This document shows positions 9,129 through 10,420 of a stretch of 10,420 nucleotides of DNA, in pieces (within the stretch, counting starts at the first letter, position 1; the number at the start of each line of letters is the position of its first letter). The position numbers were made by a program, and so were the translations under genes. Origin of the DNA: Candidatus Latescibacterota bacterium (GTDB lineage: Bacteria; JAAXHH01; JACQVL01); NCBI GenBank assembly GCA_016209865.1, contig JACQVL010000268.1, positions 1-10,420 of the forward strand, read 5' to 3'. The notes under the pieces were generated by a model. It saw only the letters and a program-made list of their open reading frames with translations, was not told the origin of the DNA and did not search any database.

Positions 9129-10157
9129 ATGAGTTACCAACTGCGAATGGAGCGCGAGAAAGATATTTTACGGTGTCTGGTCGATAGCCACGTGTCGACC
9201 GCTTCGCCGGTCGGGTCGCAGTGGATCGCGCGCCGGTCGGTCCTGGGCATCAGTCCCGCAACGATCCGCAACACCATGGGGGAACTGGAAGAGGCCGGCT
9301 ATATCTCCCGGCCCCACGCGTCCGCCGGACGGATCCCGACCGACAAGGGGTACCGGTACTACGTCGATACCCTCATCCGTCCGGTCCCGCTGTCGCCCAC
9401 AGAGAAAGGGCGGCTCCGTCGGGAAGTCCAGGGAGAGTGGAGTAGCGTCCAGGAGGTGCTCGACCACACCGCGCACGTCCTGGGGATCGTCTGCCGAGAA
9501 CTGGGGGTGACCCTGGCACCACGGCTGTACGCGGGGCTCTTCCAGCGCCTGGAGTTGATCCCGGTCGGGGACCGGAAAGTCCTGCTCGTCCTGATGATCA
9601 CCTCCGGTCTTGTGCGGACGATCGTGGCGGAGCTGGACTCGGATATTCCGCCCCCCGTCCTGGCGGAGACCTGCCGGGTGTTGAACGAACGCTTGAGCGG
9701 CTGCTCGTTGCAGGAAGTCAAGCGGCATCTGGACGAACGGCTGCGGGACGCGCCGCGCGCCCATCCGAAAGTGGTGCAGTTGTTCATCCGGTCGACCGAC
9801 CACCTGTTTGATTTCCGGGAGAACGAGCAGGTCCACTTAGGGGGGACGACGCAGATCGTCACCCAGCCGGAATTCGTGGATCATGAGAAACTCTCCCGGC
9901 TGCTCGAGTTCCTCGACCAGAAACAGGTGTTGGTTCAGTGGCTCCAGTCGCGGGAACACCCGGACGGGGTGATGGTCACGATCGGACACGAACATCCACG
10001 GGATGAGATCCACGCGTGCAGTGCGGTGACGTCCTCATATCGCATCGGCGGGGTCGTCGGGATCATCGGGGTGATCGGGCCGACTCGGATGCCGTATGCC
10101 CGGCTGATGTCCATCGTCGGGTATACGTCGCAGCTCTTGAGCACGATGTTTGTATGA
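9129..10157 (+). CDS. hrcA: Heat-inducible transcription repressor HrcA
   Basis: Dimeric repressor of class I heat-shock genes (groESL, dnaK operons), normally binding the CIRCE inverted repeat and needing GroEL for activity. The 342-residue product has the family's usual length. The N-terminal winged helix contains SPATIRNTMGELEEAGYISR (about 42-61) and PHASAGRIPTDKGYRYYVD (62-80), an HrcA hallmark. A GAF-like dimerisation region fills the middle. The C-terminal signature IGPTRMPYARLMSIVGYTSQ is at about 316-335. GAGGGA lies 7 nt before the ATG. The gene is transcribed away from the lipid operon under its own promoter. In many bacteria grpE, dnaK and dnaJ follow directly; here a foldback repeat element begins 20 nt after the stop, so any such operon would have this element inside it. 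Confidence 0.97.
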   Translation: MSYQLRMEREKDILRCLVDSHVSTASPVGSQWIARRSVLGISPATIRNTMGELEEAGYISRPHASAGRIPTDKGYRYYVDTLIRPVPLSPTEKGRLRREVQGEWSSVQEVLDHTAHVLGIVCRELGVTLAPRLYAGLFQRLELIPVGDRKVLLVLMITSGLVRTIVAELDSDIPPPVLAETCRVLNERLSGCSLQEVKRHLDERLRDAPRAHPKVVQLFIRSTDHLFDFRENEQVHLGGTTQIVTQPEFVDHEKLSRLLEFLDQKQVLVQWLQSREHPDGVMVTIGHEHPRDEIHACSAVTSSYRIGGVVGIIGVIGPTRMPYARLMSIVGYTSQLLSTMFV

Positions 10158-10177: not shown

Positions 10178-10420
10178 TTACGTTCATGATGTTTTCGCAC
10201 GAGCGGGACGCGATCCTCACGCCCGCTTCGTCGTTTCTGATGAATTTTGACGACCAAAATCGGTAAAAACCTGTAGGGGCGAATCTTGTATTCGCCCCGA
10301 TGCGGGCGATCACAAGGATCGCCCCTACGGATGACCTGTTTTGATCATCAAATCTCATCAGAAACGACGAAGCGGGCGTGAGGATCGCGTCCCGCTCGTG
10401 CGAAAACATCATGAACGTAA
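10178..10420. repeat. Large foldback (MITE-like) inverted-repeat element, reaching the window end
   Basis: Bases 10178-10243 and 10355-10420 are perfect 66-bp inverted copies. The next 20 bases inward (10244-10263 against 10335-10354) still pair but with about six mismatches, and the centre contains a separate GTAGGGGC double hairpin. No protein-coding gene is enclosed. The arms may continue beyond the window, since the right arm ends exactly at its edge. This has the form of a miniature inverted-repeat transposable element or a large REP-like element. A target-site duplication cannot be judged because the right flank is missing. As RNA it would form a very strong hairpin just after hrcA. No U-tract follows within view. 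Confidence 0.85.
10273..10328. repeat. Central GTAGGGGC double hairpin with complementary loops
   Basis: GTAGGGGCGA (10273-10282) and TCGCCCCTAC (10319-10328) form the outer palindrome. Inside, two hairpins form: GGGGCGAAT/ATTCGCCCC (10276-10284/10290-10298), loop CTTGT, and GGGCGATC/GATCGCCC (10304-10311/10317-10324), loop ACAAG. The loops are exact reverse complements, so the unit can fold either as one long hairpin or as two hairpins joined by loop pairing. It is the fullest member of the repeat family in this window. ACCTGT flanks it directly on both sides (10269-10274 and 10334-10339), possibly an insertion footprint. Confidence 0.85.

Follow-up and report, generated by a model that had tools for sequence, protein, structure and literature searches.

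The last 59 bases of the 10,420-bp window (10362-10420, minus strand) are an exact reverse complement of the sequence just downstream of the heat-shock repressor gene hrcA (10178-10236, 59/59 identity). They are quite probably a fold-back of this left flank (a snap-back chimera), made in sequencing or assembly, before or during the latter step. The window is a whole contig (G000:C218:1-10420), position 10420 being the contig end, and the 243-bp foldback that closes it consists of two unrelated parts: a genuine copy of a 125-bp dispersed palindromic repeat and the mirrored hrcA flank. The contig is one of 356 in a draft genome (3.75 Mb, 83% complete). It carries clpX and the genes for trigger factor, an S41 peptidase, inositol-phosphate synthase and a CDP-alcohol transferase, as well as hrcA (9129-10157, plus strand; an ORF matching Pfam HrcA PF01628, E=3.7e-52). 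The HrcA protein shares 59-65% identity with its counterparts from genomes recorded mostly as Latescibacterota and Gemmatimonadetes (one Zixiibacteriota). Scans for fold-backs and GTAG units covered 100 contigs of the same draft (0.87 Mb), and 15 genomes of the same order served as the comparison set.

The preliminary description saw here a nested structure of 66-bp perfect arms, an imperfect extension and a different core palindrome, and all three levels are present in the sequence. The arms (10178-10243 and 10355-10420, the right one flush with the contig end) are complementary at 66/66 positions. Pairing continues inward for about 21 bp with 6 mismatches (overall 87 nt, 93%), and a separate palindrome pair (10273-10297 and 10304-10328) lies within the foldback. 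For the 271-nt contig end the folding energy is -196.6 kcal/mol, far below that of 200 shuffled versions (z = -22). Within a span of 3 kb, no other perfect inverted repeat in the 100 contigs (0.87 Mb) exceeds 42 bp, and the foldback is therefore not a chance match. The boundaries of the repeat family, 10237 and 10361, fall inside the 66-bp arms, so that each arm comprises 59 bp outside the element and 7 bp of element end. It had been proposed that the 66-bp arms are the ends of a mobile element, a claim staked beforehand on the arm occurring elsewhere; in the genome search, the outer 59 bp, single-copy hrcA flank and its mirror, were found at this site only. A 24-nt piece of the outer arm has no match in viral contigs. 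The idea that transposase recognition keeps the outer arms perfect while the inner arms diverge also fails, because conservation across many copies is seen for the core and the imperfectly paired inner stretch. Copying of a flank from a hairpin is expected to give just this combination of arms.

The complete repeat copy (10237-10361, plus strand), delimited by alignment of genome copies, belongs to a family with about 40 full or partial copies in the draft, complete copies being mostly 91-98% identical to the family query. When the left arm and core were used together as the genome query, the full match occurred only at the end of this contig, and the other strong matches started at about query position 59 (window 10236/10237). 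In the aligned copies the body is an imperfect palindrome bounded by CTNATGA and TCATNAG. The element folds end to end, is non-coding and is too short for a transposase gene. Its core (10273-10328, plus strand) consists of two GTAG-tagged REP-like palindromes placed head to head (GTAGGGGCGAAT..ATTCGCCCC / GGGCGATC..GATCGCCCCTAC). This core matches about 40 places in the genome and is 100% identical over 61 bp at 14 of them; GTAGGGGCG occurs 80 times in 0.87 Mb vs 6-44 times for scrambled versions, and GTAG..CTAC units of 28 and 56 bp recur in the same genome. Other palindromes were seen in the draft: short perfect ones such as TGTAGGGGCGCAGAATTCTGCGCCCCTACA (C12:657-686, C139:1016-1045, C301:552-579) are apparently single GTAG units, and a 42-bp perfect inverted pair with GTCATTCCCGCG..AAGCGGGAATCC (C213:136-177 / 2385-2426) is another dispersed palindromic repeat. 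In contigs C264, C266, C288, C298, C300 and C135, a subgroup of the 125-bp copies shares longer repeat sequence on both sides (...gactcaccgggtcgccc on the left, cgtgatccgtaaaaatgtcggatgaacc on the right) and so forms a larger composite family.

With multiple dispersed copies, constant ends, terminal inverted repeats and no coding capacity, the 125-bp repeat is MITE-like. The suggestion of a mobile MITE-like element was therefore right as to a short, non-coding, dispersed palindromic repeat and wrong in taking the 66-bp arms for its ends. Target duplications and a full-length IS with the same ends, both proposed as signs of mobility, were looked for. No common direct repeat lies next to the copies of the 125-bp repeat; a TNA beside the repeat ends agrees on both sides in some copies only, which is about the expectation if N varies freely. 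End-pattern searches of the 83%-complete draft yielded the short element itself and partial ends lacking a mate, and no IS or other transposon-sized partner with the same ends. The Y1/RAYT transposase domain (PF01797) has no match in this draft and is present in five control genomes. Since neither a RAYT nor a consistent target-site duplication was found, the repeat is called MITE-like only and is assigned to neither a MITE nor a GTAG REP family. No copy of it occurs in the 15 genomes of the same order, an exact 23-nt pattern of it has no match in viral contigs, and an Rfam search gave chance-level matches only. In the literature we found no published description of the family and nothing usable on MITEs of this lineage or on FFPE fold-back reads. 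The family belongs to a known class and is specific to this lineage.

The left outer arm (10178-10236, plus strand) lies outside the repeat and is the single-copy 3′ flank of hrcA, unique in its own genome. It contains a hairpin at about 10200-10228 (region 10196-10236) with a homologue in relatives of the same order, where the stretch between hrcA and grpE holds a hairpin (AGCGGACGTGAGCGATCACGCCCGCTTCGTTTTG) 40-80 nt past the stop codon of hrcA. This post-hrcA hairpin can be aligned with the left arm of the window, and ACGCCCGCTTC is invariant. In one related genus the hairpin occurs once per genome in 12/12 genomes, just after hrcA in those genomes whose hrcA was located, and between hrcA and grpE it is kept across several genera of the order (L091-L100). 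It may serve the heat-shock operon as a terminator or attenuator. A scan for intrinsic terminators gave no match, and an exact-match search of the window for half-sites of CIRCE, the HrcA operator, found none.

That grpE or dnaK should follow hrcA is borne out by the gene order of the closest relatives, hrcA-grpE-dnaK (L091) or hrcA-grpE. grpE is present in all 14 other members of the order that were searched and absent from this 83%-complete draft. Another contig of the draft (C219:1-3142) starts 2 nt before the ATG of dnaK, with dnaJ next. With grpE missing here and C219 opening at the start of dnaK, the gap probably falls between the end of the present contig and the start of C219, and the true right neighbour of the repeat is probably grpE.

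The sequence to the right of the repeat (10362-10420) occurs nowhere else in the genome. None of its bases is independent sequence: the mirror runs unbroken to the last base of the contig. What marks a chimera, a flank copied as an exact reverse complement from a natural inverted repeat, is seen here at 59/59 positions. About 12 distinct complete copies of the repeat were recovered, and mirrored flanks occur at this copy only, the others mirroring 0-2 bp. The mirrored junction is also missing at the same locus in other genomes: in the relatives the hrcA flank is not repeated in inverted form within 700 nt, a weak comparison because these relatives belong to other genera. The 125-bp repeat breaks the assembly of its own genome, as it harbours at least 15 contig ends of the draft; the other contig ends inside it show no fold-back. 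Overlaps between contig ends in unique sequence measure 79, 119 and 141 bp, values that match the MEGAHIT k series. On that fit k was above 66, so a contig would not be ended by a genuine 66-bp arm alone. The end of C129 and the start of C18 share 119 bp spanning a repeat copy and unique flank, and these two contigs are thus adjacent in the genome.

The chimera could have arisen as follows, in steps of pairing, trimming and extension modelled on a published library-preparation mechanism (PMC10908179). The genuine repeat would stand just after the post-hrcA hairpin, and all sequence to its right would be a chimeric mirror of the left flank. A partly single-stranded fragment starting at 10178 would fold on the complementary ends of the repeat, leaving the true right flank as an unpaired 3′ tail that an exonuclease may remove. 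The 3′ end, paired on the left repeat end, would then be extended to the 5′ end of the fragment. Pairing, trimming and fill-in predict what is found: a hairpin of 243 bp in total (a usual insert size) whose outer arms match perfectly, whose inner arms keep the mismatches of the original repeat, and which has nothing beyond it. The assembler, in difficulty at the repeat, would close the contig with the chimeric molecule. In the chromosome, the repeat would most likely be followed by other DNA and then by grpE-dnaK-dnaJ.

Palindromic repeats promote template switching during replication. The chief alternative is a real and very recent inverted duplication, in which a switch at the repeat hairpin copied the hrcA flank and its hairpin backwards, so that between hrcA and grpE the repeat is now enclosed in a perfect inverted repeat with 66-bp arms. 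The exactness of the mirror suits this reading, and in the contig text such a duplication would look identical to a chimera. The fold-back is moreover alone of its kind in the 100 contigs. This counts for a duplication and against a chimera in so far as the chimera would be a single event and not a systematic fault of the assembly, an explanation that was rejected on the same observation. A real strong hairpin could also cause loss of coverage and a contig end. A duplication, however, needs a singleton event that happens to fall right at the end of the contig, with no further sequence after it, and it finds no parallel in any other complete repeat copy or in an inverted second hrcA flank of the relatives. 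It is judged unlikely. Slightly less likely again is its functional corollary, that the second arm is real and the template switch made a large, perfect inverted duplication out of what had been one hairpin between hrcA and grpE, altering read-through from hrcA into grpE-dnaK.

The remaining readings take the foldback as a unit. A functional 3′ fold formed from both arms, acting as a strong terminator or regulatory structure of hrcA, would accord with the great stability of the full structure and with the hairpin conserved after hrcA in relatives. That hairpin is local, however, and complete in the left arm, so that neither the repeat nor the right arm is needed, and the terminator scan gives this fold no match; it is very improbable. 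The proposal of a mobile MITE spanning all 243 bp, with the 66-bp perfect ends as transposase recognition sequences, draws on the dispersed, MITE-like inner 125 bp. It is contradicted by the outer 59 bp, present at one place and homologous to the post-hrcA flank of relatives, and by the family ends inside the arms, the other complete copies stopping at CTNATGA / TCATNAG; hardly any likelihood is left to it. The snap-back chimera is therefore preferred.

The repeat and the chimera can each be set beside known systems. Unlike MITEs of the RUP, NEMIS or Nezha type, the 125-bp repeat was found without a consistent target-site duplication or an autonomous partner; like them (PMC3733652, PMC10969869), it is short (125 bp here), non-coding and dispersed, with terminal inverted repeats. 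GTAG-tagged REP HH dimers lie within longer palindromes in A. variabilis (PMC3733652), and the core described here shares with them the GTAG at the outer end of each palindrome, the head-to-head pairing and the many copies. It differs from GTAG REP systems in that the 83%-complete draft holds no Y1/RAYT (PF01797), and the same paper gives no consensus-based family assignment for the host organism. The fold-back has its counterpart in sonicated libraries, which yield reads that pass from a natural near-perfect inverted repeat into the inverted complement of their aligned strand; pairing, trimming of the 3′ end and fill-in were given as the cause (PMC10908179). The artefacts of that PDSM model come from human capture libraries and are seen at read level, whereas the present case is deduced from a metagenome contig end alone. 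Both nevertheless combine a natural near-perfect inverted repeat with an exact inverted complement of the flank, mismatches being confined to the original repeat (PMC10908179). A dispersed palindromic repeat can thus interrupt a draft assembly and also give rise to a false fold-back that resembles a new mobile element. Suspicion is due wherever a perfect inverted repeat surrounds a known multi-copy palindrome and reaches the very end of a contig.
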